A stretch of 64,000 bases of DNA from Beroe forskalii (taxonomy: Eukaryota; Ctenophora; Nuda; Beroida; Beroidae): contig WFMF01000082.1 in NCBI GenBank assembly GCA_011033025.1, positions 186,001 to 250,000 on the forward strand, read 5' to 3'. Position numbers and translations under genes: made by a program. Below, one piece after another: positions 117-63,692 of this stretch (its first letter is position 1; each line of letters starts with the position of its first letter). The notes under the pieces were generated by a model, which saw only the letters and a program-made list of their open reading frames with translations, ran no database searches and had not been told where the DNA came from.

Positions 117-1318
117 AGCTGTACGCGATTCCCTGGTTCTTGACTATGTTCACACACGTGTTTCCTCTTCAGAAAATATTCTACCTGTGGGATACCATGC
201 TACTCGGTTTGATTTTAAATGAACAGAACATTTCTGTAGATTCAAAGTTAAATTTAACCGTGCTTCCTATTCTCATGTCTCCAACCACGCCCATTTATGT
301 ATGAACTGTTTGGAAACCTCCTGGCCCCCTTTTACTCTTTCACCATTCCTTGCCTCCATTGAGACCCCCATGCCCAGAAACCCTTTTAAACCCTCCCCCA
401 TTAAAGATCTTATTCAACCCCCATCCCCGCAGGGAACTCTTCCTTTCCCATGTTCCTGGGTGCTGCAGTCCTAATCCAAGTCAGAGAGACACTTCTCTCT
501 TATGAGTTCAACGAATGTATCCTTCTCTTTTCCGACATGCCTGATGTGGACATCGAGCAGGTTCGAGTCATATTGAAAATTATGTTCCAGGGTTGAATTT
601 GAGTTATTATTCTATTAGCTCAAAATATGTTGTAGTAGGACTTCATAGGGATTTAAATATGATCGGGTGAAAGCGATGCCACTTTTATCCCAAAATTTCT
701 CTAGATGATAATTCTTTGTTTCAGGTGATAAAGGAAGCGATGAAGATGTACCACATAACCCCAATGACGCTAACTTGGCGCAAGCACAGCTACTACCACC
801 AAGAGAACGTGCTACTGCCACCTAAGCCACCTGAAGGCGGCTCCAAGTACACCTACAACTTCACCAACACCTTCCTCTCGGAGCACGTGGCGAGCTTCCC
901 GGACATGCCAGGACTCAAGGAGGAAAGCTGCGGACGGATCTTCATCCAGGACCTGGCTAAGCTCCTCCGCCTCCAGGAGAGTCTGGAGATGCGGGGCGGC
1001 TCCCCCACCTACCGTACTGTGGTGGCGGACATCCGGAGCTCGGATGTGTTTGGGGTGGGGCATCTCCCGGACAGTCTCAACATCCCGGTTACTGAGGATC
1101 TGGTAACGAGTGAGGGGGCACCCACCTCCCCCGCCGCTAAGCGCCTGCTCGCCCACCGGCGCCGCAGAGACTCCCTGACCTTGGTGGTGGGACCTAACCA
1201 CACGGCTACCAAGCGGTTCTGTGACGTGCTCATCGGCCTCCACTTCCTTCACGTAGCGGTAGTGCATGGGGGTACCAGCGCTCTCTCGCAGGCGGGCATG
1301 TTGTGCGCCTCTTCTTAG
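117..1318 (+). CDS. TBCK: TBCK, C-terminal part (end of TBC domain and rhodanese domain), 5' truncated by window edge
   Basis: Three exons are visible: 117-206, 433-560 and 725-1318, each with AG acceptors, GT donors and matching phases. The first reads [18 protein letters not shown], which is the highly conserved end of the TBC (Rab-GAP) domain of TBCK. The second reads [18 protein letters not shown], again the TBCK sequence after the TBC domain. The third carries a linker and a rhodanese-like domain ([25 protein letters not shown]), then ends at TAG 1316-1318. In known family members TBCK joins a pseudokinase, a TBC domain and a rhodanese domain, and acts in mTOR signalling and mRNA/endosome traffic. 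The rhodanese Cys loop is degenerate (VVGPNHT), as in other TBCKs. The last 14 codons are the founder of the 42-bp repeat that follows. The N-terminal half lies left of the window or is missing. Confidence 0.9.
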
Positions 1319-2070
1319 GGCGCCCTCTCCCAGGCAGGCATGTTGTGCGCCTCCTCTTAGGGCGCCCTCTCCCAGGCAGGCATGTTGTGCGGCTCCTCTT
1401 AGGGCGCCCTCTCCCAGGCGGGCATGTTGTGCGCCTCTTCTTAGGGCGCCCTCTCGCAGGCAGGCATGCGCCTCTTAGGGGCGCCCTCTCGCAGGCAGGC
1501 ATGTTGTGCGGCTCTTCTTAGGGCGCCCTCTCCCAGGCAGGCATGTTGTGCGCCTCCTCTTAGGGCGCCCTCTCCCAGGCAGGCATGTTGTGCGCCTCTT
1601 CTTAGGGCGCCCTCTCCCAGGCGGGCATGTTGTGCGGCTCTTCTTAGGGCGCCCTCTCCCAGGCAGGCATGTTGTGCGCCTCTTCTTAGGGCGCCCTCTC
1701 CCAGGCAGGCATGTTGTGCGCCTCTTCTTAGGGCGCCCTCTCGCAGGCGGGCATGTTGTGCGCCTCATCTTAGGGCGCCCTCTCCCAGGCGGGCATGTTG
1801 TGCGCCTCTTCTTAGGGCGCCCTCTCCCAGGCGGGCATGTTGTGCGCCTCTTCTTAGGGCGCCCTCTCCCAGGCGGGCATGTTGTGCGCCTCATCTTAGG
1901 GCGCCCTCTCGCAGGCGGGCATGTTGTGCGCCTCATCTTAGGGCGCCCTCTCCCAGGCAGGCATGTTGTGCGCCTCCTCTTAGGGCGCCCTCTCGCAGGC
2001 GGGCATGTTGTGCGCCTCATCTTAGGGCGCCCTCTCCCAGGCGGGCATGTTGTGCGCCTCCTCTTAGGGC
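1278..2070 (+). repeat. 42-bp minisatellite built from the TBCK stop-codon region, about 19 copies
   Basis: The unit contains GGCATGTTGTGCGCCTC followed by TTCTTAGG and GCGCCCTCTCCCAG. The first copy is the true 3' end of the TBCK reading frame ([12 protein letters not shown] stop), so each copy repeats that peptide's codons and a TAG. Because 42 is divisible by three, long artificial reading frames run through it on both strands. One copy near 1465-1493 is shortened. It probably lies in the TBCK 3' UTR. Confidence 0.95.
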
Positions 2071-2863
2071 GGGCTCTCACATCGTCAGAGGAGAGCATTA
2101 AACGTAGAGGATTCTTTGGAATTCGCCAAACTTGCGGTGTCATGAAATAAGTTCCCTTGAGCGGTGAGCTACTTCTGCTTTGCTGCTATGAGAATGCCTT
2201 ACCAGGGAGCTCCTTGGACTCAAGTTCGGAATTTTAGGCCAAATAACAGGAGGCTTCTCGCTTTGTATGATAATAGTATCACTGTTACGGGGAGAGTCAA
2301 GAGGACAAGAGGTCTAGGTTATTAAGGTTTAGCATTAAGTTTTGTCAGGGTAAGGGTTTTTTGGGAATGCAAGGGACCAAGAATATTTAGTTTAATTGGT
2401 CCGTCATTGAGCCGGTGTTATTATGGATTTTATCAGTTTCCATTGGTTGCCAAGGACTACTGTGTAGTTTATATGTTCGTGTTTCAAGATTGATCTTGAC
2501 GAAAGATAATTGGCATGATTCAGATGCTTCTTGACTTAATTTGTACGATCTACAGCTACTGAGTTATTGAAGAGATATAGGATAAAGATTGAACCCCAGA
2601 GATAAATTCATGTGGCTTAAACTCAGATTCAGTTGCCCTCTATGCTACGATTGCAGGTTAATCTTCCATAATTTATTGTCCGTTAATTGCTTTTTAAGTG
2701 TTTTTTATGTCAAATTTTGATTCGATAACATTTATTGCTGTGATACAATTAGTAGTCATTCATATGTTGAAATAGATTATAAGAATTCAACGGAATACAA
2801 AAAGATGTAAATCACAAAAGCAACTGCTAAAACACAGTCAAATCCCCTCTAACATTCCTCTCA
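2071..2863. other. Intergenic; TBCK 3' flank and SIX 3' flank
   Basis: I see no coding exon here. The sequence is AT-rich and non-repetitive, and probably holds the convergent 3' ends of TBCK (+) and the SIX gene (-). No convincing AATAAA with a clear context was found on either strand. Confidence 0.5.
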
Positions 2864-4183: not shown

Positions 4184-4254
4184 CTCAGCTTATAGATTGT
4201 TGTTGGTGTTGTTGTGGAGTATGACGAATGATGACGAAATGATTCGTAACTGCC

Positions 4255-4261
4255 TTATATA
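4255..4261 (-). promoter_or_regulatory. TATA box of the SIX gene
   Basis: On the - strand the sequence TATATAA lies about 72 bp upstream of the ATG at 4183. A start site about 30 bp downstream would give a 5' UTR of roughly 40 bp, rich in AAC triplets. Confidence 0.6.
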
Positions 4262-19485: not shown

Positions 19486-22400
19486 TCAACTCCTGACGAA
19501 GTCGTGGTTGCTCGGACTGCAATTCACCGCGGGGATGTCCGGGGTTTGCCAGAGTCCGTACGTCCGTCCAACGTGGTTCTGCCACAGTCGGATAGTTCCG
19601 TCCTCGCTGCCGGACGCGTACAGTTCACCGTCCGGCGAATACCTGAGAGAGTAGGGGTGAGATGGTTAATACCTGTGAGAGTAGGGGTGAGCCAGGTTAA
19701 TTCTACCAGTGAACACCTTTAGTGGGCAGGGGTGAGCCAGGTTGATTTAACCAGTGAATACCTATGAGTGTAGCCTGTGTGAGCCAGGTTAATGTTATTC
19801 CAGCGAATACCTGAAGTGGCCAGGTGTGAGCCAGGCTGAATACTAATCAGTAATCAGCGAATATCTGCAGCCAGCTGCTAATTGGCCTGTTGCCAGTTAT
19901 TAAAGTAACACAGTTTAATAAGAGAGATAGAGGCCGAGGCCCAAAACAATGAAGAAATCAACTTCTCAAATGAACAATGAAGTATTTGATTAGTAAGTAC
20001 CTACGTCCATCTTGCCATATCTTATCGTATAAAGTAGATAAGGATAGCCTGCTCGAGCTTTTTGCGCTGATTATTGCAATGTGAATCACTACAATTCCAT
20101 GATTGGAGATACAATGATAGAATGATAATCTGATCAAAAGGGCAACAAACAAGTTTGATTTCCGATGGCTTTCAGAAGCCCAGCAAGTGATTTTGGGTGT
20201 AGCATCCCTTACAGAATGATACTCTTCCAGTCACTACAAATCGAGTATACAGTACTGATGTAGTAATGTACAGTTTCAATTAGTGTATCACTCGTGTATA
20301 ATAGTGTATATAAGTGTACCCATATAAGTGTACACTGTACACTGCCATGAATTCTACATGTATTTATGCTTTCATGATTAAAATGATAAGTTTATTGGTG
20401 GATGAAGTAGGTATGTTATTATCAAGTACCCCGAGACTACCTGATGCAATGGACCGGACCAAAGTGCTTCTTGTAAGACTCGAGAATGCTACCGGACTCT
20501 ATGCTGACCTTGTACACATGTAGATCCTCCCCGCCACACACGAAATACCTCTGAAATAGTGGGAGAGTGAGTAACAGAGCAAAATGTTGTAGGTACCATC
20601 AATCATGGTTTTGAACGCCCCAGATATAGAATCAAATTCCCAAACTTTGGTTCTATGCCAAGCCTGGATCGAGGTCCGCAGGATGACAATATCCCAAGTT
20701 CAAGGGATGCCAAATAACCATTAACCAAACAGAACAAAGTAACATAGGACGACTGATTCACGCACCTGGTTGACGTGGAGGGAGGCGCTGTTGACAGTGC
20801 AGGGGAGGGTGCAGGTGCGGAGGAGGTCGAAGGTCGTCACGTCGTACAGAGCCACGCAGTTCCCGTAGGGAACAGTCACTACCCCCTCCATCAGTACCAT
20901 GCCTGGGGGAGGGGTTAGTTTGAGAGGGTTAATCTAAGGGAGGGTCAGGGATTTCAGACTGAGGGGGGTTTGAGGGTTTTACAAGGGCACCGTCACCACC
21001 CCCCCAAACAGTACCATGCCTGGGAGGGAAGGGGTCAGCCTGGGGGAGGAGGGTCAATTTGAGGGGGGTCAAACTGAGGGGTCATTTCGAGGGGTTTACT
21101 AGTTGGCCAGGTAGTCAGGTAGCGCAGTGGTTAAGGCATCGTACTTTCAATCGAGAGGTTGGTGGTTCGATTCCCGGCCGTGCCTATCGTGCTAAGGGTG
21201 AGAATTCTCACCTAAGCAGCCACACGGTTCACTCAGCCGAGCGTACAGGAAACTGTGCGGGAGGGTTAAATGAGGAGCTGCCCATTGCAGCGAAGTCTCG
21301 GGCGATGAAAGTATGGATTACACTTCCTTAACCGTCACTGGCTTGATTATACTTGAATCCTTCGATTCCTGTCATTGGCTGTTACAGCTGTTGGAATAGA
21401 AGTAAAATCTTCAAAATAAAAAAGGGCACCGTCACCACTCCCTCCATCAATACCATGCCTGAGAGGGAAGGGGTCAGGTTGAGCGTTTTACTCCTTTATT
21501 ACCATGCCTGGGAAAAGCTGATTAGGGGGGGGGTGAGGGGCAGAACCATGCCTGGGGAGGGGGTCAGTTGGGGTTTTACTTCTGTTTGGCAATCAGCTGA
21601 GAGTCTGAAATAAGGAAGAAATTAATTAAAAATAAAACAAAATAACAATCAACAAGCCATCACCAACTTGTACAGTGTACACTTGTACAGTTGAAATTGA
21701 TGATAATATATCAAGAGCATTACAAACCATTTATTGCTTGATCAAAAGGTTGTGATTTGAGTTCTTTGTTGGACCTCCTATCCCACATCTTCATTGTATT
21801 ATCTTCACCACAAGATATGAAGAAGTTGTCGTTCTTCAGGAACCTGCATCCTTTAATGATGCCGTTGTGTGCTGAATACTCCTGGAGTTATATTTACTTG
21901 ATACCTATTCCGTTTAAAAAGGTTTGTTTTTTTAATATAAAAAGCCATAAAGGGCCAAAACCCTAATCAGTGACAATTTGCTATTTGAAAGCATGCAATT
22001 GTGATAGATGATTTCTTATGCCATACACTGCTAACATTTGCAGACAGTGTTATAAATTTCGCTTTATGACACATCGAAATAAACTTGCATATAACAAAAC
22101 AAATCTATAATATAAAATTCAAGTGTATTCATGTATAGATGTATCTAAATATGAAACTTATAAGTGTGTGAGCAAGTTTACCTCCTTGGCCGCCCCAGGG
22201 TGACGCATGTCGAAAATGCTCAGTTTGGACTTTGAGGTGCCAGTCAGAAGTAACGTTGCGTCGTGGTTGATGGAGACAGACTTCACCTGAATTTCATCAA
22301 TTATTGCTTCATATTATTATTTTTCATTATTCTAGAATGATACCTGAAGTGTCATGACATCTGAGAATGAATTTGAAATGTAAACGCATGCGCCATTTCA

Positions 22401-34224: not shown

Positions 34225-34560
34225 TTGATTTGATGATTCAGATCAAGTCATGACCATGACCAACAATACTATAATGATTCAGATCTAGTCATGACCATGA
34301 CTAACAATACTATAATGATTCAGATCTAGTCATGACCATGACTAACAATACTATAATGATTTAGTTCTAGGCATGACCAATGACCATGACTAACAATTAT
34401 ACTATAATGATTCAGATCTAGGCATGACCATGACTGGCAATGCTATAATGATTTAGTTCTAGGCATGACCATGACTGACAATGCTATGTTGATTTAGATC
34501 TAGGCATGACCATGACTAGCAATGCTGTGTTGATTCAGATCTAGGCATGACCATGACTGA
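34225..34560 (+). repeat. About 40-bp minisatellite carrying the start codon of the Met/Pro-rich gene
   Basis: Eight copies of GATTCAGATCTAGGCATGAC then CATGACTGACAATGCTAT run head to tail. The last copy continues into the reading frame as ATGACCATGACTGACGAGC, so each copy repeats the two possible start codons and the first four codons. Upstream copies would open short frames. Confidence 0.9.
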
Positions 34561-40500: not shown

Positions 40501-43462
40501 TGTACTTCTATACTCTCCTTGCTGTTTGATTGGTCACAAGGAATACCATTTAAACACTTAAATACTAAAGAAATAACCCTAATAATCAACGAAAAATGCA
40601 CTACCTTCTAGGACAAGAGGTATACAATAGTTTGTATCTATACAGGTACGGCAAAGCAAGCAAGTAAGAAGGCTACCCTTGGCAATGCTATGAACAATAT
40701 GATGCGACACAAGCGACTTGAAGATATGAGCACTAGACCCCAGGTACTTTAGATAAATTAGTAATTCACCGCTGGGTGTGTGAGTTGCTGAGGTTTAGCT
40801 AGCTTATTCCTATTCCCTGTTTGCGTGGCCGTATGTGGGGCAGTTCAACATCGATCGATTTGAAATCCCTCATTTCACAAGCATTAACACCTTTCATTAT
40901 CATTTTGTTAAAATTAACACCCTAATCAAGCTCTTATTCTTCTTCATTTCGTTCCTTTAAGATTTTATAATCTCACAGAACTCAAATTCCTATTCTCTGG
41001 AGCTTAGGGTCTCACAGAATGATTGAATTTGAACACCTCATTTTTTCAATTATTCACTAAATCAGTTTGAATTTGAGTTCCACCATTCATGGTTTATCCC
41101 GTTCCGCACATACCAGTTTGCAAATAACCCTTTCTCTCCAGCTGCAGATGATGAAAGGCAATATGTTCCCTGGGGGAGGGGAGGGAGGGCCTTTTCCCGG
41201 AGGCCCTGCAGGTCGGGCACCGCCCCGCAGTGCCTCAGTGCAGGATATCACACAAAACGTGATGGCTCAGAGCAGGACCATCAACGAGAGTATAGCCTCG
41301 CTAAACATGCCAAACAGGAACAAGAACATGCCCATGACAACGCCTCATCCTACACCGCTAGGACAGCCCAACAGCCAGGTTTGAGGGGGACGAACTTCTG
41401 TTTGTGGAGCTGACGTTTACATAATCAATAATAACCAGCTTCGAATGTCTGCAAGTTATTTTGACAGTGTATCTGGCCCACTCTTTGGGATGTTGTGTTT
41501 TCATTTGACGCGCAGCAGTTTTATGTGGAGTTGAATGCGCGAAATATCAATTAAGATCTGCATGTACTGTAAATCTTATTTGACGCGCACAGTTATTTGA
41601 CAGCAGGCGGCCTTGTTGATCAAACCAGTTTGAGTCCAACTTAAAACTTTCGCTTTTCGGTTATTAGTAGATTGGTTGATCTACTGACCAATACCATGTT
41701 AATGTCTGTTTCATATTCTTGTCCACTGCAGAACAGCTATTTTAGAGAGAGGTCAAAGAGATGTTAAATCACCGCAATAAGTAATTTGTTCTCGCGCCCT
41801 CTGTCCAGCACAGAACACTGCCAAATGGTGTAAACCGATGCTTGTGAACAATTTTGAATTCCCCTGTCCCTCTTTACTTCTTTAAAGTACACTGTGTTTC
41901 AGGGAATGGAAGTACCTCGGTCTCCTAACATTTCATCTCCTAACGCGGGGTTTAACAACATGTCTCCCATGTCGCAGTAAGTTGTAAACATGACATCGCC
42001 GATGTGTTAATTTGCAATTGCGGACTCTGTTGAACCGCTTTCGTTGGATTCTGACTTTTATCTTTATCTGCAACACCACCATTTTCTAATTAATGTACCT
42101 TCTATGAATTTAACCTTATTCCTTATCGTTATACGACTTCTCCCCCGCAGTATGGGCGCTAGAATGGGGCCGCCGCCCCCAAACCAGACCATGATGTCTC
42201 CCAACATGATGATGCGAGGTGTAATGGGGCCGGACCAACGCGGCATTCCCAACCAACACTTCCCCATTCAGTCCATGGGTTAGTGGCACTTATCCCATTG
42301 AAATACGTTTGTCAGATGTAAACAAATAAAGCGATACATAGTGCATCATCGGCCCTCAATTTGGTCGAATAAGGCTGAAAATTTTAAAATGTTTATTTGA
42401 TTAGAAATTCCTCTCCTAAGGTGACCCTATAGCGATGCAGCAGCATCTAATTAGAAATTCCCCTCCTAAGGTGACCCTATAGCGATGCAGCAGCAACAAC
42501 AGATGTACCAGCGGATGGCTGGCGGCATGTACCCCGGCCCCCAAGGCCTTACACTGGTCCAGGGCAGCAACATAGGGCCCCGAATGGTCTACAACCCAGT
42601 CAGTGGACAGACCATCATGACAACCCAGCACTCAGGGCCAATGATGGCAGGGAATCCTCAGATGTCAGGCAACAACTCACTTTCGAGAGCAGGTAGGGAG
42701 CGCGTGTAGCATCTGTATTGCCACAACCTTCCATCTCCGTAAATTGTTTTAGATTAACTGGAAATAGCTGAATAGCTCTTCTTTGTATCATTAGACTTAA
42801 TGGTTAAGTATATGTTTCAAATGGCTACCCTCACACTAACTCTCTCAGGGATGATGGGTCCGGGTGGGGGTATGATACCAGGGATGGGTCCTGCACCACC
42901 CAACATGTCCGCTGCTAACTTAGTACAGAACCAGGCAGGTCTGCCCATGCCTCAGAAGATGGTGCCTGATAGTCACCAGCTGGTCGTCAGCCAGCCCATG
43001 CAGCACCCTGGCGTGATGATGGGCAGTCCCTCGCTCCCTCCAAACCACACCATCTCCAACTTCCCAGGGGGACCTCACGGCCTCCCTCCCAGCTCCATGG
43101 CCCACATCTCCAGGGAGATGCAGCTGGCGGCCATGTCACGTGACCCGGCCATGTCACGTGACATGGCACGCAGCGGAGGGGGACCACCCTCCATCCTCTC
43201 CCCTGAAAACAAGGCTAAAATGTCGAGTAAAATGCCCGGGGGACTACCAGTGAGCTCCTCCTCAGCTGGCATGATGCCCCCTCCCATGTCACCAGCTGGT
43301 AACATGGTGTCTCCTGGTAACGCCTCCCTCCCCATGCCTGGTAACAGGACTCCCCAGCAACGCACCCCTCCCACCACCTCACCAGCTGAACGAGACAACA
43401 TCACTCTGAACACTGCAGTGGCGGAACCTCTCACAGCTGACGACTCTATGAACCCTGCCTAG
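34547..43462 (+). CDS. Met/Pro-rich nuclear-type protein of unknown family, 9 exons
   Basis: Exons 34547-34671, 35059-35196, 35318-35391, 40646-40743, 41142-41378, 41903-41976, 42151-42278, 42483-42692 and 42849-43462 join in phase to 565 codons. The start is MTMTDELW; the second ATG (34553) is equally possible. Residues 1-145 are acidic then basic (FDTFDYHEDKGADNIRKR, ASKKATLGNAMNNMMRHKR), a likely folded or interaction region with nuclear-localisation character. The rest is low-complexity, rich in Met, Pro, Gly, Ser and Gln (AMQQQQQMYQRM), as in transcriptional cofactors such as SSBP, BCL9 or mastermind; I cannot assign it to any of them. Intron 3 is 5.3 kb and holds a - strand gene and a hAT-like element. 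A polyadenylation signal AATAAA lies near 44583. Confidence 0.75.
35591..36344. mobile_element. Non-autonomous hAT-like element
   Basis: Ends share CATAGCTTCATCC in inverted orientation, and the block is flanked by a perfect 8-bp direct repeat ACCCTTCT (35583-35590 and 36345-36352). An 8-bp target duplication is the hAT hallmark. The left end has four extra bases (GAAG). G-rich stretches next to both ends (AATTCAGGGGGG) are inverted relative to C-rich ones. No transposase. Confidence 0.65.
36707..37227 (-). CDS. Secreted four-helix cytokine-like protein, frame interrupted after the signal peptide
   Basis: From the ATG at 37227 the - strand reads MTTVTSLLSTALVLLLNTLY then TEAAAIS, a good signal peptide with a cleavage site near AAA, and stops at TGA 37126. 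Starting one base back, near 37140, a second frame runs EVPMMTRPISKSLQSCWLDS to the TAG at 36707. It has four amphipathic stretches (about SKSLQSCWLDSRSIMETVVS; ELGVELMATYETLYCFASI; AIQTINSIHHSISEVID; FDILYQAVVRQLALLERLSM) and five Cys. Size, secretion and four helices fit a helical cytokine or similar hormone fold. Family membership is inference only. The two frames need a one-base correction, so this is either a sequencing error, a recent pseudogene or unusual expression. It is single-exon and nested in the intron of the Met/Pro-rich gene. Confidence 0.55.
37311..37319 (-). promoter_or_regulatory. TATA box of the cytokine-like gene
   Basis: On the - strand the sequence CAGTATAAAAAGGGG lies 85-90 bp upstream of the signal-peptide ATG. 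This is a near-ideal TATA element and puts the start of transcription near 37285. Confidence 0.75.
37400..40645. other. Intron 3 of the Met/Pro-rich gene, right part
   Basis: I see no further gene here. Several short open frames (38592-38774, 39061-39270, 39323-39517, 40037-40267) have no splice context or family resemblance. A palindromic GCAGGC-type repeat (CTAGCAGGCACGGGGCCCTG) at about 38272 is shared with 53985-54030. Confidence 0.5.
42400..42499 (+). repeat. 50-bp duplication of the exon 8 acceptor of the Met/Pro-rich gene
   Basis: Copies at 42400-42449 and 42450-42499 each contain ATTAGAAATTC, CCTAAGGTGACCCTATAG and the exon start CGATGCAGCAGCA. The phase requires the second acceptor (exon at 42483). 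Use of the first (42433) would keep frame for 16 codons and then meet TAG, so it would truncate the protein. Confidence 0.9.
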
Positions 43463-44677: not shown

Positions 44678-47600
44678 ATGGATCATCAAGAAACAGAATC
44701 TCAATCAGGCAGATATCATGATCAGGTGCGTTTGAATTTGATGATCTGCTTTTAGGTTTTTGGCATTTCTACATCATGATATTGATTAATTGTCCGAGCT
44801 GCGTGGTATTTCGTCAAAAATAAGTTTTTTGTTATTATTTTACACCCATCATTTCAGTTTTACAAGAAGGAGGTGCGGTTGGAGGAGGGTATCGATGCTC
44901 AGGACCTGTTCAGTGGGAAGGGATTCACTTTCTCAGTCAAGGACGAGGGTTTTGAAGCTGATATTGCCAATGACATGAGTAAGATCAACAAATGGGATTC
45001 CTCAGAGATATCATCTGTGGGCATAGACCCTTCAGCGCACGAGGGGGTAAGTGAATGAGTGGGGGATTGACCCCTCAGCACATGAGGGGGTAAGTGAATG
45101 AGTGGGGAATAGATCCTTCAGCGCACGAGGGGGTAAGTGAATGAGTGGGGCATAGACCCTTCAGCGCACGAGGGGGTAAGTGAATGAGTGGGGAATAGAT
45201 CCTTCAGCGCACGAGGGGGTAAGTGAATGAGTGGGGGATAGACCCTTTAGCACACGAGGGGTAAGTGAATGAGTGGGGGATAGACCCTTTAGCACACGAG
45301 GGGTAAGTGAATGAGTGGTTTCTGTGGTGATTAAAACCCTTCAATGCACGAGGGGGGGTAAGTGAATGAATGATGTGATGTGGCAATAATTCTAGCATTT
45401 ACAGTAGGATAACTACTTCCTTGTGTTGTTAATGCATCCTCTTGAACTACAATTTAATATGCGCAAAAACTAATTCACTTTCAGTTTCGTTTATTGAAAA
45501 AAAACATGATTTCAGTATTTCAGCATAACTTTCTTTAAATAAACCAGCTGTCCTGCAGGGACCTTTCAAAGGTATCGAGCACCTGTTCACTGAAACAATT
45601 GCTGAGAGTGAGGTGCCTGATCAGAGGATCCTCAAGCAGACAGTCAAGCCTGGAAGTGGGCCTTTAGTTCCCTCCCGAGCTTTTGTTAAAAGTGAGTACA
45701 GAAGTGGGCCTTTAGTTCCCTCCCGAGCTTTTGTTAAAAGTGAGTACAGAAGTGGGCCTTTAGCTCCCTCCCGAGCTTTTGTTAAAAGTGAGTACTGAAG
45801 TGGGCCTTTAGTTCCCTCCCGAGCTTTTGTTAAAAGTGAGTACTGAAGTGGGCCTTTAGTTCCCTCCCGAGCTTTTGTTAAAAGTGAGTACAGAAGTGGG
45901 CCTTTAGTTCCCTCCCGAGTGAGTGCAGAATGAGTGTGTTTATAACTCACAAGTTACAACTCGCCAAAACGGTCGTATGATAAAAGAGACTGATCCAATG
46001 CCTCTGCTACTTAGAAATCCCTGTAATAGACCCCGTGTTCTCGTTCTGATTAATCGATGCGTCCTGAGTATGTAATTGTTACATCGCAATCTGAAGATAA
46101 TTCCACAATCTATCCGAAGACAGTCTAACTTCATCCTTTCAGTACACTATTCGAGCTACGTTGAAGGACACGACGAGCCCACTGACTCCACTCGACTCCG
46201 GAATCGGCCTCACGGTTTCATCTTGGGGGAAGGAGTGAACATCCCAGCCATAGACCTGGCTGTGGCTACCATGAAGAAGAACGAGAAGTCCCGATTCCTG
46301 GCGGACTACCAGTTCTGTTACGGAAAAATGGGAGTTCCTCCCAGGATACCGATGAAAGCAAGATGTGGGTTTCAAGATCAATATATGATAAGCTAAGCCC
46401 TATTTCCAAAACACAATTTGTTAATATGCACTTTAGTTTCTTGCGTGTAGGGCAAGAATTACAATGTACCTGTGCTGTTCGAAATACCAAGATGTGTAGG
46501 GCTGTGTACTGACACTCTATCAATCTTCAGTGCTGTTCGATATAGAAGTCATGATGTTCATTGACGATAACAAGATTAACGAGTATGACGCTCTGGCGCC
46601 AGAGGACAGAAAGGGCATTTCTCTGAACGATATCCTCAAACTTGCTGCCATTTGCCGCGAGGTGAGCCGCGAAACACGGCATCATAATTTAAACCCCGCA
46701 CGCGAAAATAATAGGTGGCTCAACGTCATCAATATACTGCACTACGCTATGATAATGTCGTCATCTTAACGAATTTAGGACAGTAATATAAACATTGAAC
46801 ATAATGTGGCTTCTGACCTACTCTTCCATTTCAGAAAGGTAATGAGAACTTCAAGAAAAGTACCAAGACGGCGTATAACAACTATTTGAAGGGGTATAAG
46901 ATTCTGGACGGACACTCGCCTGCAAATGATGACGAGGAGACCCAGCTTCAGAGCGAAAAGGTTGGGTTTAATCTTGTACTCATGTACATTCAACAATGTA
47001 TATTTGCGTAGTCGTACCCGCCTCTATTTATACTGTTGATACATTTTACGAACTAACCTTGGAGTTCTGAGGTCCGAAGTCCGTAGATGACAATGAATTC
47101 AATGATACACATCAAGTCATAATGGTGTATTTCAGAAAACCATAATAAATGTTCTCTAGACCATGCATATCCTTCAGATAAAGATCCTGCTGAACCTCTC
47201 ACAATCTTGTCTGGAGCACGGCAAGACAATCGACTGTCGGATGTACACGAAGGAAGCAATCCAGTATCTCAACAACGAGGCTCTCAAGAACCCCTTCAAA
47301 CTCGGAAAGGTATGATTGATTCCTGTTTCCTGTGCATGACTATGGGCTCCGCAATTTCACCCAATTACCCCTCATCGTCCGATTAAAATAATGAAACAAA
47401 TAATTACAACCAATTTCGTCAATCAACGAAATTCGTGTCATTGATTTCTTTAATCTGAATCGTCCGATTAAAATAATGAAACAAATAATTACAACCAATT
47501 TCGTCAATCAACGAAATTCGTGTCATTGATTTCTTTAATCTGAATTGAGACTGAGAGTCTGAGGGTATGAATTGGGAATATCTCTCCCTCAGGCGCACTA

Positions 47601-52244: not shown

Positions 52245-55200
52245 ATGCCACCCCATGATCTAGAGGGTGGGTGTTTTGGCGTAGTTCCCTTCCATGTTGC
52301 ACCTCATCCTCACAACTGTATCAGCAACAATGGACTTCCCATCACCCACAACTCTATACGGGTCATCGGCCGGTTTGCCGACCTTGCTGGGCTAACTCAC
52401 CCAAATATCTGCAGATACCTCGATATAATAAGGTAGGCATTTATTTCTTTTAAGATATCAACTATTGATCGATGCTTTAATGCTTACTCTTTTATTTGAC
52501 ATGATTTTGACTACGCAATACAAGAAAGGTATGTATACCCTTATCGTACAACAAAACAACCCCTAGGTATGTAGAGTGTTCAACACTAATCTTCATAACA
52601 CCTTGCACAAATTAAAGTATTCTTTTTATTGGACTATTCACTCGACTTGTATCTTCGTATGCAATTATCATCTGTTATCCTAGTGTTGCAATTAATCCCC
52701 AGAGGCAAGGGGGAGATGGTTGGTGTGGTGCAAGAATACCACAAAGACACCCTCCTTTCCCTCATGTCTGGACCTTCCTTCGACCTCTCCTCCCTCTCTA
52801 CATCCATTCGCCAAGTCATGTACGATCTACTCAACGGTCTCCACTACCTCCACTTCAGAGGAATTGGTAAGTTCTTAAGTAGGTAGGAGTTCGGGAGATT
52901 CCTAGTGGGCATAGAGGACTGTGGGCATAGAGGACTGTGGGCAAACGCGACTGTGGGCATAGGGTACGGTTACCGTTAATTGCAGTCAATCATAAAAGTA
53001 CACAAACATGTATCATGTTTCACAGACTTCCCTAAAGTTGATTAATGATAGTTGATATATCTTACATTCATTTTATATGTGTAAATGAATAATGGACTCA
53101 TCATGAAATGCATGAACTTATAAACTTCAAACTTGTTATAAATTTACTTTAAACCCCCAAGACATGACATGGTCTATTCGCTGCAACTTTGTACTGTGTT
53201 TTATAGATTACAATATGTTGATATTCTACAGTTAAACTACATATTGCCTCGAATCGTAGATCTAATATTTTGAGTTTTATTGCACCAATTTAATGATGAT
53301 AATCTTATATATAATTTCGTAAGAGCACGTGAATTATGTCTGTCTGTGCGGGCGCACAGTTTAAATTTGAGCTTGCCAAGTAAATATCAAGAGAAACGAA
53401 GGCTAAGCTGGGCTAAGTCGCACCGTTGCTATGGATACACGTATTCTGCACGTGCAGATTATGATCAGTTCTATGCGAGTACTTTCTGATACGTTGTTGA
53501 CTGCTGCATTTTAACGTTTGAAAGAACGGCGTGCTTACTGTTTTTCTTTTGAAATTCAAGATCTGAAGACAGAGGACGACCTTATGGCTGGCATCGTGGA
53601 GACTGTTTCTGATAGCATCTCTTCATAAATCTGTGACAGACGTCGGTCGATTTAAATCAATGCTGAGTTGATGGTAACAGAAAATGTGAAATTAGAACAA
53701 TTAAAGATTGAACAAACTCAAAATCAAATTGAATCGAATTTGGGCATAGCACATTGCGATTTTGGCGTGAATCAATGCTTTAATTTAACGTTCAGTATGA
53801 ATACGATACTCGGTTTTAATTTTCAGATTGAACTATATCATACAAGCAAATTATAATAATCAAAACTTGCAGGGTCCAGCATTAATAAAAGTTACCAACG
53901 AATAGTGGTAAATTTTGCTCCTTCATAAAAATTTTGAGAGCTTATTATTTGGTCTGTATTATCTAGCCGGCCCAACGTAGCGCCGCCGAGTCAACTATGT
54001 ATTAGCAGGCCCATCGGGCCTGCTAGTTATTGATAAAATGATAAGATAGTCAGCGTGGCCAAGGACAAATATTACATTTTAATTCCTCAGTGAACAGATC
54101 GGTCGCTCTTCACAACGTAATGTTAGACAGTTGGAGTGGAACTGCAAAGCTCGCTAACTTTGGTTTCTACTACTTGGTCAACGGTGGAAAGGCCGTTGAG
54201 TTCTTTGTTGGGGACATGGCCCTTTCTGCTCCTGAGGTGTTTCTAGCAGTTACTCTGCAGCAATAGTTACTTTTTGCGTGCGGGGTCGAAATAAGCGTTT
54301 GTGAGGTGGCTGCCAAATCATTTTACCTAGAATTTTGGTGATATTGCTATTGATATGATCCAATAGCTGTACACTGTACAGTAATGACTGATCAATAAAA
54401 CAATTGATGCTCTTTATAATCCAAGAAACACAGCAATGATATTAATTTGTCTACATGTTTCGGTCCATCTCCGTTTTCAGGACAATTAACATCTCATATA
54501 TCATTAATAAGCCTTCTGGCTTCCTACCTCAAATTTGATTGTATAAAGTAGTGTTGTAAAGTTTAAAAACTGTACAGTAATGTTCACTTCACAGTTCCAA
54601 TAATTGTAATATACTTGTATACTCTGATACTCTAGTAGCATTGTCCTACCAGCCAAAACATTGATTATATCTCATATAATTTAACACACTAGCCAGACTA
54701 TCTTTTGGAGTGAAGTCTTATTAACTGTAGGTATCTATAGTATACATTCAATACATGATTAGTTAGGTATCTACTATACATTGAATTCACGATTAGGTAG
54801 GTATCTACTATACATTCAATACACGATTGCCGATCAGTGATTGGTACTCTACCCCCACTCAAATCATCATATAACAATGTGTTATTGTTATCCAACAGGT
54901 GTAAGTCCCTACTAAGTGTGACATCTGGTCCCTAGCTCTCATCCTCCTTTCCCTTCTGAAGGGCAGCCCTCTGTCAGCTGATACCTCCTTCTCCGGCCTT
55001 CTAAAAACCCTGTTCTCTGGTAAACTCACTCTGGCCCAGAAGTGTGAGCAGCTTAACATCGACATACTCCCAGAGTTCGAGGAAGTTAGTGACTCTTTAC
55101 AACTATTTACTTGATTTACTGATTGACTGATTTGACTAGTCCTCAAACTATGATTCATGTCACCTATTTTGGCACTGTTCTATATAAATTTACTGTGCGA

Positions 55201-58200
55201 TGATTCTTGAAGAGAGAGATTATTTTGAAATATTATTTTCGACGATCGAAAATACTGTTTTATTAATCTTACATTAGTACATTAGATCAGTTTATAGTTC
55301 ATTCCTTAAAAAGTTAAATTGATTCGATTAAACAATTTCAATCCATTGGGTTTTTATAAGATTTTTTAGTTTTAGGTAAGAGCCTGGTGATAAAACGAGT
55401 CCTACAACAGAAGACTTAATCTCGACGTTTTTCAAAGGTAAAAATTGTTGATCGTTGTTTTAATGAATCTTTGTTACAGATAAAAATGATATTAAACTTT
55501 GATTCTATATGGTATATATCCAGTATATCTGAGTATCTATTAACGTTCATTGCCTCACTGACCGAATTGATTACGGTTAGGTGAGTCCTACTCCTTCTCT
55601 GTCATGGATCTCACCTCATCTCCACCTGACTCTCTATTCATCAGATGGTGGTACGTGGTGAGAGTCCCTCCTCCCTTCTCTGTGCGAGATCTCACCTCAT
55701 CTCCACCCTGACTCTCTATTCATCAGATTGTGAGGTACGTGTAGGTGAGGTCCCTCACTCCCTTCTCTGTCATGAGATCTCACCTCATCTCCACCCCTGA
55801 CTCTCTATTCATCAGATTGTGAGGTACGTGTGGGTGAGAGTCCTCACTCCCTTCTCTGTCATGAGATCTCACCTCATCTCCACCTGACTCTCTATTCATC
55901 AGATTGTGAGGTACGTGTAGGTGAGGAGTCCCTCACTCCCTTCTCTGTCATGAGATCTCACCTCATCTCCACCCCTGACTCTCTATTCATCAGATTGTGG
56001 TACGTGTAGGTGAGTCCTCACTCCCTTCTCTGTCATGAGATCTCACCTCATCTCCACCCCTGACTCTCTATTCATCAGATTGTGAGGTACGTGTAGGTGA
56101 GGAGTCCTCACTCCCTTCTCTGTCATGAGATCTCACCTCATCTCCACCCCTGACTCTCTATTCATCAGATTGTGAGGGTACGTGTAGGTGAGGAGTCCCT
56201 CACTCCCTTCTCTGTCATGAGATCTCACCTCATCTCCACCCCTGACTCTCTATTCATCAGATTGTGAGGTACGTGTAGGTGAGAGTCCTCACTCCCTTCT
56301 CTGTCATGAGATCTCACCTCATCTCCACCCCTGACTCTCTATTCATCAGATTGTGGTACGTGTAGGTGAGGAGTCCTCACTCCCTTCTCTGTCATGAGAT
56401 CTCACCTCATCTCCACCCCTGACTCTCTATTCATCAGATTGTGAGGTACGTGTAGGTGAGGAGTCCCTCACTCCCTTCTCTGTCATGAGATCTCACCTCA
56501 TCTCCACCCCTGACTCTCTATTCATCAGATTGTGAGGTACGTGTAGGTGAGGAGTCCTCACTCCCTTCTCTGTCATGAGATCTCACCTCATCTCCACCCC
56601 TGACTCTCTATTCATCAGATTGTGAGGTACGTGTAGGTGAGAGTCCCTCTCCCTTCTCTGTCATGAGATCTCACCTCATCTCCACCCCTGACTCTCTATT
56701 CATCCAGGGTACGTGTGGTGAGGAGTCCCTCACTCCTTCTCTGTCTTGAGATCTCACCTCATCCTATTCATCTCTCCTTCTCTGTCATGAGATCTCACCT
56801 CATCTCCACCCTGACTCTCTATTCATCAGATTGGTACGTGTAGGTGAGGTCCTCCTTCTCTGTCATGAGATCTCCTCATCTCACCCTCTCTATTCATCAG
56901 ATTGTGAGGTACGTCGTAGGTGAGAGTCCTCACTCCCTTCTGTCATGAGATCTCACCTCATCTCCACCCCTGACTCTCTATTCATCAGATTGTGAGGTAC
57001 GTGTAGGTGAGAGTCCCTCACTCCCTTCTCTGTCATGAGATCTCACCTCATCTCCACCCCTGACTCTCTATTCATCAGATTGTGAGGTACGTGTAGGTGA
57101 GGAGTCCCTCACTCCCTTCTCTCTGTCATGAGATCTCACCTCATCTCCACCCCTGGCTCTCTATTCATCAGATTGTGAGGTACGTGTAGGTGAGGTCCCT
57201 CTCCTCCCTTCTCTGTCATGAGATCTCACCTCATCTCCACTGACTCTCTATTCATCAGATTGTGTGGTACGTGTAGGTGAGGAGTCCTCACTCCCTTCTC
57301 TGTCATGAGATCTCACCTCATCTCCACCCCTGACTCTCTATTCATCAGATTGTGAGGTACGTGTAGGTGAGAGTCCCTCACTCCCTTCTCTGTCATGAGA
57401 TCTCACCTCATCTCCACCCCTGACTCTCTATTCATCAGATTGTGAGGTACGTGTAGGTGAGAGTCCTCACTCCCTTCTCTGTCATGAGATCTCACCTCAT
57501 CTCCACCCCTGACTCTCTATTCATCAGATTGTGAGGTACGTGGTGAGGAGTCCTCACTCCCTTCTCTGTCATGAGATCTCACCTCATCTCCACCCCTGAC
57601 TCTCTATTCATCAGATTGTGAGGTACGTGTGTAGGTGAGGAGTCCCTCACTCCCTTCTCTGTCATGAGATCTCACCTCATCTCCACCCCTGACTCTCTAT
57701 TCATCAGATTGTGAGGTACGTGTAGGTGAGGAGTCCCTCACTCCCTTCTCTGTCATGAGATCTCACCTCATCTCCACCCCTGACTCTCTATTCATCAGAT
57801 TGTGAGGTACGTGTAGGTGAGGAGTCCCTCACTCCCTTCTCTGTCATGAGATCTCACCTCATCTCCCACCCCTGACTCTCTATTCATCAGATTGTGAGGT
57901 ACGTGTAGGTGAGGAGTCCTCACTCCCTTCTCTGTCATGAGATCTCACCTCATCTCCACCCCTGACTCTCTATTCATCAGATTGTGAGGTACGTGTAGGT
58001 GAGGAGTCCCTCACTCCCTTCTCTGTCATGAGATCTCACCTCATCTCCACCCCTGACTCTCTATTCATCAGATTGTGAGGTACGTGTAGGTGAGGGAGTC
58101 CTCACTCCCTTCTCTGTCATGAGATCTCACCTCATCTCCACCCCTGACTCTCTATTCATCAGATTGTGAGGTACGTGTAGGTGAGGAGTCCTCACTCCCT

Positions 58201-61200
58201 TCTCTGTCATGAGATCTCACCTCATCTCCACCCCTGACTCTCTATTCATCAGATTGTGAGGTACGTGTAGGTGAGGAGTCCTCACTCCCTTCTCTGTCAT
58301 GAGATCTCACCTCATCTCCACCCCTGACTCTCAGATTGTACGTGTAGGTGAGGAGTCCCTCACTCCCTTCTCTGTCATGAGATCTCACCTCATCTCCACC
58401 CCTGACTCTCTATTCATCAGATTGTGAGGTACGTGGTGAGAGTCCCTCACTCCCTTCTCTGTCATGAGATCTCACCTCATCTCCACCCCTGACTCTCTAT
58501 TCATCAGATTGTGAGGTGAGGAGTCCCTCACTCCTTCTCTGTCATGAGATCTCACCTCATCTCCACCCCTGACTCTCTATTCATCAGATTGTGAGGTACG
58601 TGTAGGTGAGAGTCCCTCCCTTCTCTGTCATGAGATCTCCTCATCTCCACCCCTGACTCTCTATTCATCAGATTGTGGTGAGGAGTCCCTCACTCCCTTC
58701 TCTGTCATGAGATCTCACCTCATCTCCACCCCTGACTCTATTCATCAGATTGTGAGGTACGTGTAGGTGAGGAGTCCCTCACTCCCTTCTCTGTCATGAG
58801 ATCTCATCTCCACCCCTGACTCTCTCTTCATCAGATTGTGAGGTACGTGTAGGTGAGGAGTCCCTCACTCCCTTCTCTGTCATGAGATCTCACCTCATCT
58901 CCACCCCTGACTCTCTATTCATCAGATTGTGAGGTACGTGGTATGTGTAGGTGAGGAGTCCTCACTCCCTTCTCTGTCATGAGATCTCACCTCATCTCCA
59001 CCCCTGACTCTCTATTCATCAGATTGTGAGGTACGTGTAGGTGAGGAGTCCACTCCCTTCTCTGTCATGAGATCTCACCTCATCTCCACCCCTGACTCTC
59101 TATTCATCAGATTGTGTGGTCATGAGAGTCCTCACTCCCTTCTGTCATGAGATCTCACCTCATCTCCACCCCTGACTCTCTATTCATCAGATTGTGAGGT
59201 ACGTGTAGGTGAGGAGTCCCTCACTCCCTTCTCTGTCATGAGATCTCACCTCATCTCCACCCCTGACTCTCTATTCATCAGATTGTGAGGTACGTGTAGG
59301 TGAGGAGTCCTCACTCCCTTCTCTGTCATGAGATCTCACCTCATCTCCACCCCTGACTCTATTCATCAGATTGTGAGGTACGTGTAGGTGAGGAGTCCCT
59401 CACTCCCTTCTCTGTCATGAGATCTCACCTCATCTCCACCCCTGACTCTCTATTCATCAGATTGTGAGGTACGTGTAGGTGAGGAGTCCCTCACACCCTT
59501 CTCTGTCATGAGATCTCACCTCATCTCCACCCCTGACTCTATTCATCAGATTGTGAGGTACGTCAGAGTCCTCACTCCCTTCTCTGTCATGAGATCTCAC
59601 CTCATCTCCACCCCTGACTCTCTATTCATCAGATTGTGAGGTACGTGTAGGTGAGGAGTCCCTCACTCCCTTCTCTGTCATGAGATCTCACCTCATCTCC
59701 ACCCCTGACTCTCTATTCATCAGATTGTGAGGTACGTGTAGGTGAGGAGTCCCTCACTCCCTTCTCTGTCATGAGATCTCACCTCATCTCCACCCCTGAC
59801 TCTCTATTCATCAGATTGTGAGGTACGTGTAGGTGAGGAGTCCCTCACTCCCTTCTCTGTCATGAGATCTCACCTCATCTCCACCCCTGACTCTCTATTC
59901 ATCAGATTGTGAGGTACGTGTAGGTGAGGAGTCCTCACTCCCTTCTCTGTCATGAGATCTCACCTCATCTCCACCCCTGACTCTCTATTCATCAGATTGT
60001 GAGGTACGTGTAGTTGAGGAGTCCTCACTCCCTTCTCTGTCATGAGATCTCACCTCATCTCCACCCCTGACTCTCTATTCATCAGATTGTGAGGTACGTA
60101 GGTGAGGAGTTCTGTCATGAGATCTCACCTCATCTCCACCCCTGACTCTCTATTCATCAGATTGTGAGGTACGTGTAGGTGAGGAGTCCCTCACTCCCTT
60201 CTCTGTCATGAGATCTCACCTCATCTCCACCCCTGACTCTCTATTCATCAGATTGTGAGGTACGTGTAGGTGAGGAGTCCTCACTCCCTTCTCTGTCATG
60301 AGATCTCACCTCATCTCCACCCCTGACTCTCTATTCATCAGATTGTGAGGTACGTGTAGGTGAGGAGTCCCTCACTCCCTTCTCTGTCATGAGATCTCAC
60401 CTCATCTCCACCCCTGACTCTCTATTCATCAGATTGTGAGGTACGTGTAGGTGAGGAGTCCTCACTCCCTTCTCTGTCATGAGATCTCACCTCATCTCCA
60501 CCCCTGACTCTCTATTCATCAGATTGTGAGGTACGTGTAGGTGAGGAGTCCCTCACTCCCTTCTCTGTCATGAGATCTCACCTCATCTCCACCCTGACTC
60601 TCTATTCATCAGATTGTGAGGTAGGTGTAGGTGAGAGTCCCTCACTCCTTCTCTGTCATGAGATCTCACCTCATCTCCACCCCTGACTCTCTATTCATCA
60701 GATTGTGAGGTAGGTGTAGGTGAGGAGTCCTCACTCCTTCTCTGTCAGGTGTAGGTGAGATCCCTCTCACCTCATCTCCACCCCTGACTCTATTCATCAG
60801 ATTGTGAGGTACGTGTAGGTGAGGAGTCCTCACTCCTTCTCTGTCATGAGATCTCACCTCATCTCCACCCCTGACTCTCTATTCATCAGATTGTGAGGTA
60901 CGAGGAGTCCCTCACTCCCTTCTCTGTCATGAGATCTCACCTCATCTCCACCCCTGACTCTCTATTCATCAGATTGTGAGGTACGTGTAGGTGAGGAGTC
61001 CCTCACTCCCTTCTCTGTCATGAGATCTCACCTCATCTCCATCCCTGACTCTCTTGATGCTCGTGAGCTAGAAGACCCTCTTTCTCACGCCTGTTCATTG
61101 GAGGAGTTGTATGAATTGTGGAAAATGGCCGGTGGGGATGTTATGTCGGAACTTGAAAAGTGAGTGAGCACCAGCATACTAACTACTAACCACTAAAGTT

Positions 61201-63692
61201 AGTCTTGAGTAGCGGAACTTAGTAACCCTGTGCTATTTCTAAAGTATTTTATTTTTAGAAAGTTCTAGAAAGGAAATCTGGTATTTGAGTCTATTTCTGT
61301 ATTTAGGTAATTCTACCAAAATACTTAGCATCTTCGACCCACACTGGAAATAAATTCCAGTCAAATTATTTGCCACTTTAACAAAGGATCAAGCCACGAA
61401 ATCATTAACTTGTTTCCCTTACAGTCTAAATCTCGGCTGTATAATCACATTCGTCGCAATAGCTACAATAACACTTATCAGTGTATTATTGTTTGAAATC
61501 TATTGTTTCTTTCCACAGTCCTTATTCCAACTCCCCCAGGTTCGGGTTGGTGCGCGGCTCTATTCCCATCTGTGACATGCCCCTGGTAACGCTACCCTCG
61601 GGGGAGGTGGTAAAGGAGCACCATGACAACGTACTAGGGCACAGACAAACTGTCTACCCTCTCTCTCCTGCCCTCATTGTCAAGCGACTAGCTCACGTCG
61701 AGCCAGAGGTAATAATGAGCTACCTTCCAAACACAAGGAAATGTATCTTTATATCTTGTGCAATTTATACCAGAGGTAATAATGAGTTATGAGCTACCTT
61801 CCAAAGCACAAAAAATATATCTTGTGTGCTGGCGGTATACATGCAGTTTATACCAGAGGTATTGCGGATATCTCGCTGTGTGAAGAACTGCCTTACTGAC
61901 AAATTACCTACGTTAATACCAACTAATCTGGGTTTGTGTTGAGAAGCACAATTTGTAATGCAGATATCGCTGTATGAAGTACCTACTGCCTTACTGATAA
62001 CTTACGTTACTATTAGCTTACCTTCATTCTAAGTTAGAATTTCTAACTTTCCTTGCTGCTATTGTTTCACTGTTATTAATTCTTTAATTCAAATCACTTG
62101 TTAATTAGGTGCTAAAGAGAGAAAACTGACATAACACCATGACCTATTGTAATAGCAATGACTGCTCCTCGTGATGAGAGCAAGAAGTATTTGTACATGT
62201 TAGCTCTGATCTCATGACAAAAACTACACCATCGCATTATTGACTTTTCTTCTGAAATATTAAAATAAAAACGCAATGAGTGTTTTGTGTTCATATGTCA
62301 TAATGAGTTAATTTGACAGCTCACAATGATAATTACAACACTCAGGTCTACTACCCCCTGGTCCTAACTAAGACCAAGTTATCACAAGGCATGCAGGACA
62401 TGTCATCCCTTCCCATCGTCATCAAGGAACGTAACATTGAGTACCAACTCCACCGAATCAAGCTCTTCAAGGCGCTCTTGTATGTGAGTACCTGCCACGT
62501 GCTCTGTGACACGTGACGTGTTCTGTGACCTGTCCTGTGACCTGTCCTGTGTTTTAGGACACATCACGTGATATGTCACGTGACATGACGTGTGACGTGT
62601 TGTCAACTTAGCAACGTGTTTTGTGCAGCTCTTTAGTCCCTTTCATACGTGCATATTACCAACTGGATGGAAATAAGTCTGACTGTCTGACACAATTCTA
62701 ACTTTTGTTTCCAATCCTTTCAATATCTCAGAATGTACAAGCTTCATAATTCTTACATACTTCGTTGCATACTCCAGCAATGTTTAATTTAATCTGAAAG
62801 GCGATATGGTAAATGTTTTCCTGCGAGTTTTCCTGAATATTGGTAAACAAATGTCCATACCTTAGTACCAGAAATATAGGCGACAAGAAATTAAGGCGAT
62901 TTTGGAAAAATCGCCTTAATTTCTTGTCGCCTTAATATCTGGTCGTCTAAATATATGGTCGTCTTAATTTTTTAAAAGACTTCATTTTCAGTTATTTTTT
63001 CTCCACAATCGACTATTCCCAATATAGGAACACAATAAATCACTTGATAGCCAGTTATCAGTGCAATTAGCAGCAAAACCAAATTAAATGCCTATTCAAG
63101 TATTATTTTAGTGGAAATCTCATCATCATTCTAATCTTCATCTGATGTAAAGATGCCGGTATATTGACTCTAGAATGTTGATTGACCGGTTTAAAAATCT
63201 CAGGATCTGATGTAGGTACTGTATTTTGAGGACTCACTCAACAAGAAATGTTCTGTATTTTTGTTCAATTTTATAGTCATTTCATAGCCATTTCAATTAA
63301 AAAAATCGTTTATTTTCGAAAAAAAAACTTCAATTTGAACTCCAGGAAAAAATCGCCTTAATATCTTGTCGCCTAAATATCTTGCGCCTTAATTATTAGT
63401 CGCCTATATTTCTGGTACTAAGGTAGTTTTGATATGCCTTATTGTTCATTTGCCAATGATAACCGTCAATTCGCATTATCTCGCGACGAATTCCATCTAT
63501 CGGTAATTGTTCTCTACGGCAATTATATATGCAGATAATTCATGATGAACATCGGTGGTACCTGATTTGCTAAATTCGTCATCTTATTTCAGTCGTATCC
63601 AGCGTCTACAGACTTCATCATGAGGGAAGCGGAGCTGGACGTGCCTCCTTTGCTGCGTGCTTTAGTATGGTCTGCTCTTCTCAATGTCAAAG
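52245..63692 (+). CDS. TBCK: TBCK, N-terminal part (pseudokinase to start of TBC domain), continues beyond window
   Basis: Exons 52245-52432, 52703-52866, 54091-54236, 54917-55084, about 55381-55437, 60973-61159, 61519-61708, 62346-62483 and 63593-63692. Reads include NGLPITHNSIRVIGRFADL, THPNICRYLDI, HNVMLDSWSGTAKLANFGFY, CDIWSLALILLSLLKG, CSLEELYELWKMAGGDV, PIVIKERNIEYQLHRIKLF and LDVPPLLRALVWSALLNVKG, which follow human TBCK in order up to the TBC start. The kinase catalytic HRD is NRS and DFG is NFG, so it is a pseudokinase as in other TBCKs. The start ATG at 52245 (MPPHDLEG) matches the human start by length. The join between 55084 and 55381 is out of phase, so a small exon is missed there. 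Intron 5 holds a 5.4-kb minisatellite and intron 8 a MITE. Confidence 0.9.
55580..61047 (+). repeat. 91-bp minisatellite, about 60 copies, carrying the TBCK exon 6 acceptor
   Basis: The unit runs ATTGTGAGGTACGTGTAGGT, GAGGAGTCCCTCACTCCC, TTCTCTGTCATGAGATCTCA, CCTCATCTCCACCCCTGACT, CTCTATTCATCAG. The last copy is the real exon 6 start: TTCATCAG/ATTGTGAGG is the acceptor in phase with exon 5, and the unit body codes EESLTPFSVMRSHLIS before diverging to PDSLDARELEDP. So every copy repeats the acceptor and the first 75 bases or so of the exon. The unit length is not a multiple of three, and upstream copies would frameshift or stop. Copies differ mostly by small deletions. Confidence 0.95.
61700..61870 (+). 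repeat. Two to three copies of the TBCK exon 7 donor region
   Basis: The exon end CCAGAG/GTAATAATGAG and the next 60-70 bases (CTACCTTCCAAACACAAGGA, ATATCTTGTG) recur from 61770, and CCAGAGGTATTGCGG begins a third partial copy near 61853. All keep a donor-like GAGGTA. Confidence 0.8.
62484..62610 (+). repeat. Low-complexity CACGTG/GTGAC tract at the start of TBCK intron 8
   Basis: Right after the exon 8 donor, GTGACACGTGACGTG and TGTGACCTGTCCTG repeat irregularly, with several TCACGTGA palindromes, which are also E-box-like sites. A pair of the same TCACGTGA sites lies in an exon of the Met/Pro-rich gene near 43140. Confidence 0.7.
62868..63425. mobile_element. MITE of 558 bp with perfect 27-bp inverted ends, in TBCK intron 8
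   Basis: The ends read TACCTTAGTACCAGAAATAT followed by AGGCGAC, and the exact inverse on the right. If the outer TA is the target duplication, the element begins CCTTAGTACC and fits a Tc1/mariner-type MITE. Inner subterminal copies of TCGCCTTAATNTCTTGTCGCC make further hairpins. No coding capacity. Confidence 0.85.

Follow-up and report, generated by a model that had tools for sequence, protein, structure and literature searches.

Mirage-like minisatellites at exon edges in the ctenophore Beroe forskalii and their placement relative to chance

Several genes in a stretch of 64,000 nucleotides of the Beroe forskalii genome (contig WFMF01000082.1, positions 186,001 to 250,000, equivalent to C936:186001-250000 within a 216-Mb assembly of 1,134 contigs; hereafter the window) carry tandem arrays made of units that extend across an exon-intron boundary, a stop codon or a start codon; the functional boundary is the terminal copy. 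We consider it reasonably probable (about 0.68) that these arrays are mirage minisatellites, as such structures are called in amphioxus, which arise by random local duplication in a minisatellite-rich genome and survive where one boundary stays intact. Local duplication, by slippage or unequal exchange, would found arrays at more or less random places. Where a founder lay over an exon edge, the extra copies would fall on the non-coding side, the terminal copy would still work, and the array with its decoy splice sites would be tolerated; wholly exonic arrays would mostly be lost through selective removal. Unequal exchange could later shift copy number fast.

Anatomy of the boundary arrays

Tandem Repeats Finder returned 50 rows for the window, which merge into 31 arrays of period at least 12 covering 13.4 kb. 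Gene boundaries in the window (90, including starts and stops) were placed by hand from reading frames and GT/AG signals. The gene names TBCK, STRAP, FKBP6 and methyltransferase are, beyond the Pfam domains reported below, presumptive. An earlier note on this DNA had named eight boundary sites at which the unit of an array lies over the edge of an exon, and all eight could be located: Tandem Repeats Finder, reading of the sequence and splitting of the arrays into units show copies of an exon edge, stop codon or start codon at each, six of them being called directly by the program. As the note had also described, units are part coding and part intron, with the functional boundary in the first copy at donors and at the stop codon and in the last copy at acceptors and at the start codon. 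Unit length among boundary-crossing arrays is 31-91 bp.

Donor copies are clearest in FKBP6. The exon 2 donor array (45019..45318, plus strand) consists of 43 bp x 7 and spans the donor at 45045; GGTAAGT is present in 8/8 units, the last being a degenerate unit beyond the array. The exon 3 donor array (45653..45919, plus strand; 48 bp x 5.6) spans the donor at 45691/45692, with GTGAGT in five full units and a truncated sixth, and the reading frame stays open through about two more units before a stop. Both arrays were split into units at the donor motif itself, so it is the regular unit lengths that carry the point. The stop array of TBCK-A, one of two TBCK copies, begins in the last codons of the gene (1278..2078, plus strand; 42 bp x 19), and the stop TAG is kept in 19/19 units, of which the first is the coding copy. 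Likewise, the start array of a Met/Pro-rich gene (34233..34558, plus strand; 41 bp x 7.7) runs from upstream over the start codon region, where ATG occurs at 34547 and 34553.

Acceptors are copied as well. The array at the TBCK-B exon 6 acceptor (55593..61054, plus strand; 91 bp x 61) takes up most of intron 5 and extends into the exon 6 coding frame, the acceptor itself being set at 61024/61025 by guess. The Met/Pro-rich gene shows a duplication of 50 bp x 1.9 across the exon 8 acceptor at 42482/42483 (42400..42495, plus strand). The STRAP exon 7 acceptor array on the minus strand (19636..19895) is degenerate, with units of about 45 bp of the form CTCTCAG/GTATTCGC; Tandem Repeats Finder recovered 19683-19835 and the rest was seen by eye. 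At the STRAP exon 5 acceptor (20860..21580, minus strand) degenerate copies of the form CCCCAG/GCATGGTACTGATGG were also recognized by eye, with other sequence interspersed; there are five minus-strand occurrences of CAGGCATGGT, one of them the working copy, and Tandem Repeats Finder called no boundary array at this exon. Two weaker cases in the earlier note fared differently. The TBCK exon 7 donor is indeed copied, in two to three degenerate copies of the form CCAGAG/GTAATAATGAG (61704..61870, plus strand) seen by eye and not called by Tandem Repeats Finder, while the methyltransferase exon 7 array stops about 22 bp short of the acceptor and is not a boundary case. The STRAP exon 5, STRAP exon 7 and TBCK exon 7 cases are all degenerate, and the program detects little or nothing of them.

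Boundary cases do not outnumber other arrays, since they make up only about seven of the 31 arrays in the window: five that cross a boundary strictly, one ending over the start codon, and STRAP exon 7. The remaining 24 include three wholly exonic arrays, the methyltransferase array and, within the region of STRAP exon 5, a 15-bp array. In the five arrays that cross strictly, 1-15% of the length is exonic, as would be expected if only the terminal copy lay in the exon. Away from annotated genes, a 22-bp unit (TGATCCCATGGTTAATCCCTAC) forms an array of 3.7 kb at window positions 7049-10798 and a further small array at 12023-12094.

Boundary-spanning units are also found beyond the window contig, on C277, C248, C321 and C489. 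Donors are copied in FKBP6 exons 2 and 3 and on C277 and C248; acceptors in Met/Pro exon 8, TBCK exon 4 (copy A), TBCK exon 6, STRAP exon 7 and on C489.

C936 carries two TBCK copies, which belong to a direct segmental duplication of some 15 kb that contains TBCK and a SIX gene and whose two parts lie 61 kb apart (C936:176846 to about 191900, locus L004, and C936:238075 to about 258900, window 52075-64000). Eleven of the 12 exons compared are 92-99.5% identical between TBCK-A and TBCK-B; the short fifth exon is 84% identical with many gaps. Two boundary arrays are common to both copies and differ in length as assembled: the stop array has 19 units in A and about 62 in B (L005 1869-4481), and the exon 6 array about 13 in A (L004 4543-5753) and about 61 in B. 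At the exon 4 acceptor TBCK-A has a boundary array of 70 bp x 14 (L004 2963-3916), whereas TBCK-B has a single copy (54899..54954, plus strand). We rejected the reading that the 70-bp array was cleanly born in TBCK-A: in the hand model TBCK-B has a stop in frame at exon 4, and it is therefore perhaps a collapsed array with a broken frame. Exons 1 and 4 also show one-base homopolymer differences between the copies, which suggest uncorrected read errors. Arrays within coding sequence exist too, the SIX gene in both parts of the duplication being an example. Haplotype concatenation was rejected as the source of the two TBCK copies, given that the TBCK match extends over about 15 kb and that window 42100-47700, which includes FKBP6, is complete only once in the assembly, with no allelic copy there. 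Nor does the assembly contain a full second copy of FKBP6 or of the end of the Met/Pro-rich gene. The final two FKBP6 exons present in the window recur at 95-97% at C469:1668843-1669275 (L007, L008), with an intron of about 130 bp instead of 245 bp; the 85-bp intronic repeat may be new.

Pfam matches in the genes studied comprise a kinase domain (TBCK), FKBP_C (FKBP6), a SIX homeodomain gene, an ANTH gene and a short-chain dehydrogenase; the last TBCK-A exon has no Pfam match, and the joined TBCK-B exons gave no match against PDB at E 1e-15. The methyltransferase gene has, in the hand model, an apparent intron with a GC donor that is bordered at both ends (window 30414 and 30625) by identical CTACCAAG. 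Long intron-free frames encode a dynein heavy chain, an ANTH-domain protein and glutamate receptors (L061, at C1024:1419001-1429000; C534:78781; window 49297-51129; L042, L043 and L049). Exons of the intron-bearing dynein gene on C248 match the intron-free frame in L061 at 34-88%, which suggests that some of these frames are retrocopies. Among the glutamate-receptor frames, L049 has its best match in ML032222a (E 2e-64) and its next in 4zdm (2e-49), chains from the ctenophores Mnemiopsis and Pleurobrachia, with vertebrate receptors behind them (about 4e-45 and weaker); a second frame, L044, shows no such order among its 60 listed hits. The mitochondrial contig, C1134, has 13,339 bases and 17.5% GC, and its COX1 fits genetic code 4.

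Placement of arrays relative to chance

The null model places a founding duplication of unit u anywhere outside exons, so that about u-1 start positions put it across any one boundary. It was applied to genes outside the window that were picked by protein family regardless of repeats: dynein genes on four contigs (C248, C277, C321, C489) and myosin loci on nine. Introns were located by spliced alignment, with an intron-free dynein frame and five exon peptides from a single myosin gene as queries. The resulting map holds 64 introns, those of myosin on seven contigs; dropping a near-duplicate gene on C173 (4/64) leaves 60 introns and 51 kb. Other low-score junctions are kept in this map, and four myosin junctions (on C1) come from the query aligned to its own gene.

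Tandem arrays are abundant in these introns: 38 arrays of period at least 12 cover 13.8% of the sequence (10.3% for period at least 20), and overall about 12-14% of intron DNA in the dynein and myosin genes is array. For comparison, repeats called by Tandem Repeats Finder make up 13% of the genome in the ctenophore Hormiphora (PMC8527503). Boundary crossings occur in 3/38 arrays, compared with 2.59 expected for random founders (P = 0.49), and other scores, periods and intron-length limits give P values of 0.39 to 0.87. The crossings are an array on C277 at 9264 (seven copies of GGGTCCTGCTGGAACAG/GTTAGTCG), an array on C248 at 15803 and a weak one on C321 at 5843, whose junction has a low score (56.6) and whose array includes about five exonic bases; excluding it, the crossings number two, not three. 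Adding 36 predicted introns (n=96) gives four crossings among 45 arrays against 3.65 expected (P = 0.51). Ab initio gene finding performed too weakly to be used in the window; in the dynein genes it was a supplement only, and its exons had to be backed by homology or to score highly as coding. Since crossings outside the window occur at the rate of random placement, an edge-seeking mechanism is unnecessary.

Array coverage as a function of distance to the closer of the two splice sites points the same way, with no peak at the exon edge of the outside introns and the lowest values beside the boundary. Arrays cover 1.1% of the adjoining 30 exonic bp, 4.6% of intron positions 1-10 bp and 9.9% of 11-30 bp, and further into the intron 12.9% (31-60 bp), 13.1% (61-100 bp), 10.2% (101-200 bp), 20.6% (201-500 bp) and 13.8% (deeper). 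We would like to emphasize that the power of this comparison is limited: the ratio of observed to expected crossings has an interval of 0.3-2.8 outside, and pooling outside and window introns gives 8 crossings against 4.91 expected (P = 0.12, ratio interval 0.7-3.2), which leaves room for a two- to three-fold edge bias.

Such a bias is the principal alternative. Array birth could be biased to exon edges, chiefly donors, through R-loops, stalled replication at the composition steps between exon and intron, or repair of spliceosome-bound DNA. Several results favour this explanation and weigh against random placement. In the window, 5/31 arrays strictly cross one of the 90 boundaries where 1.75 are expected (P = 0.026, post hoc), and window introns alone give 4/15 crossings against 1.26 expected (P = 0.03). 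Two dynein boundary arrays lay off the first intron map, an acceptor array at C489 6385-6500, which became the fourth crossing of the 96-intron test, and a donor array at C277 2440-2675, which is left uncounted. In a genome-wide test based on one donor word, CAGGTAAG, and its mirror, tandem pairs 22-52 bp apart number 644 + 301 for the word and 60 + 62 for the mirror (945 vs 122), against single-site counts of 6,031 and 4,967. Strong donor-like sites in repeat units number 7 vs 0 mirrored among 37 arrays from the window plus the stretches on either side of it, and 6 vs 3 among 50 arrays outside.

Each of these results is subject to qualification. The window was singled out for this very feature, and restricting its introns to those up to 1 kb leaves 3/10 crossings against 1.72 expected (P = 0.24). 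The start-codon marker lay 4-10 bp too far right, so that the start array fell outside the strict count; admitting the start array and the degenerate STRAP cases raises the count to 6, 7 or 8 (P = 0.006, 0.001 and 0.0002), but degenerate arrays were counted in the window only. The claim that boundary cases exceed chance holds, post hoc, only within the window; the outside sample shows no excess. With the donor word, 58 of the 100 matches listed come from two arrays, on C110 and C122, and seven loci among those listed resemble one dispersed 52-bp family. Counted as loci on contigs up to C196, where word and mirror are comparable, the result is 28 vs 15 (per-site ratio 1.5, P = 0.22); without the 52-bp family and with a satellite on C184 counted once it is 21 vs 8 (per-site ratio 2.2, P = 0.06), a pruning that was chosen post hoc and applied to places entered in shortened form, as the ends of long runs. 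The excess is thus large in copies and not significant in loci. Donor-site scores over all arrays are not significant either (P = 0.27 and 0.19), the outside mean is reversed, and the window group includes the TBCK and SIX duplicates twice; a modest preference for donors is compatible with these figures. Targeting of exon edges is accordingly not established, and with no excess in the outside sample and minimal coverage at the edges we regard a general edge bias as unlikely. Its stronger form, in which array birth or growth is biased toward active splice donors, exon edges are minisatellite hotspots, and the 945 vs 122 pairs are the trace of that bias and not of a few large arrays, appears more doubtful still; if true, it would point to an origin of tandem duplication linked to transcription or splicing. 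The array at C122:285852-287613 is large, with CAGGTAAG about every 43-58 bp.

Three further explanations carry less weight than edge bias. Selection might keep the copies if decoy splice sites, upstream starts or repeated stops regulated the genes or varied the protein, and splice and stop signals are indeed intact in the copies examined, with two boundary arrays retained in both TBCK copies. High identity between copies suffices for intact signals, however, while the three- to five-fold difference in copy number between the TBCK copies, the 14 units vs one at the exon 4 acceptor and the 43-bp units at FKBP6 exon 2, which would shift the frame, all argue against a maintained function, making this explanation very unlikely. 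An assembly artefact, with noisy long reads misassembled into arrays or array lengths, would agree with the homopolymer differences in TBCK exons 1 and 4, which resemble uncorrected read errors. We judge it highly improbable, given that five contigs (C936, C248, C277, C321, C489) carry boundary arrays, in more than one gene family, that array copies differ by substitutions, and that the amphioxus counterparts lie in genes with regular splicing by RT-PCR (PMC3087553). The least probable explanation is that the arrays are new introns made by tandem duplication of exon segments (the AGGT model), even though this is a known route of intron gain (PMC3443670) and has been put forward for the amphioxus mirages (PMC3087553). 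The duplicated segment is not the whole intron in FKBP6 introns 2 and 3, STRAP intron 6 or Met/Pro intron 7, in which the array lies at one end and other sequence extends to the opposite end; TBCK intron 5 is the only intron among those looked at that is nearly all array. Random founding of mirage minisatellites, followed by survival where a boundary remains intact, is thus the reading that we favour.

Comparison with known systems

Minisatellites at exon-intron boundaries are also known from human segmental-duplication genes, where they lie in recent duplicates and are described as able to alter splicing (PMC2812944). In that setting the internal tandem repeats go together with segmental duplications and with introns proposed to be new. 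TBCK is duplicated in Beroe as well, but FKBP6 and the end of the Met/Pro-rich gene carry boundary arrays without a full second copy, and most introns outlast their arrays in length. Intron gain by tandem genomic duplication, in which splice signals are copied locally (PMC3443670), differs in that the duplicated segment becomes the intron, whereas here the array is joined to one intron end.

The closest relatives are the mirages of amphioxus Adh3 and of the globins BflGb6 and BflGb9. As reported (PMC3087553), their tandem units lie over the 5' or 3' exon-intron boundary, measure 10-160 bp, retain AG/GT signals in many copies and are unstable in length; intron gain by tandem duplication was proposed for them. 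The Beroe arrays share the boundary-spanning units at both donors and acceptors, and their unit lengths fall within the same 10-160 bp. The proposal in the earlier note that no such system had been described is therefore rejected, and the arrays are not novel in kind, because the amphioxus mirages had already been published. They differ in occurring in a ctenophore, in several genes within tens of kb, with up to 61 copies, and over stop and start codons as well; a partial literature search found no report of boundary-copying arrays in ctenophores. The kind is thus known, while the host and the density are new: mirage minisatellites are extended from cephalochordates to a ctenophore, at high density and with the chance expectation set alongside. 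Such genomes seem a suitable setting in which to ask how splicing passes over decoy sites, by what route arrays of this type grow and whether intron gain draws on them.

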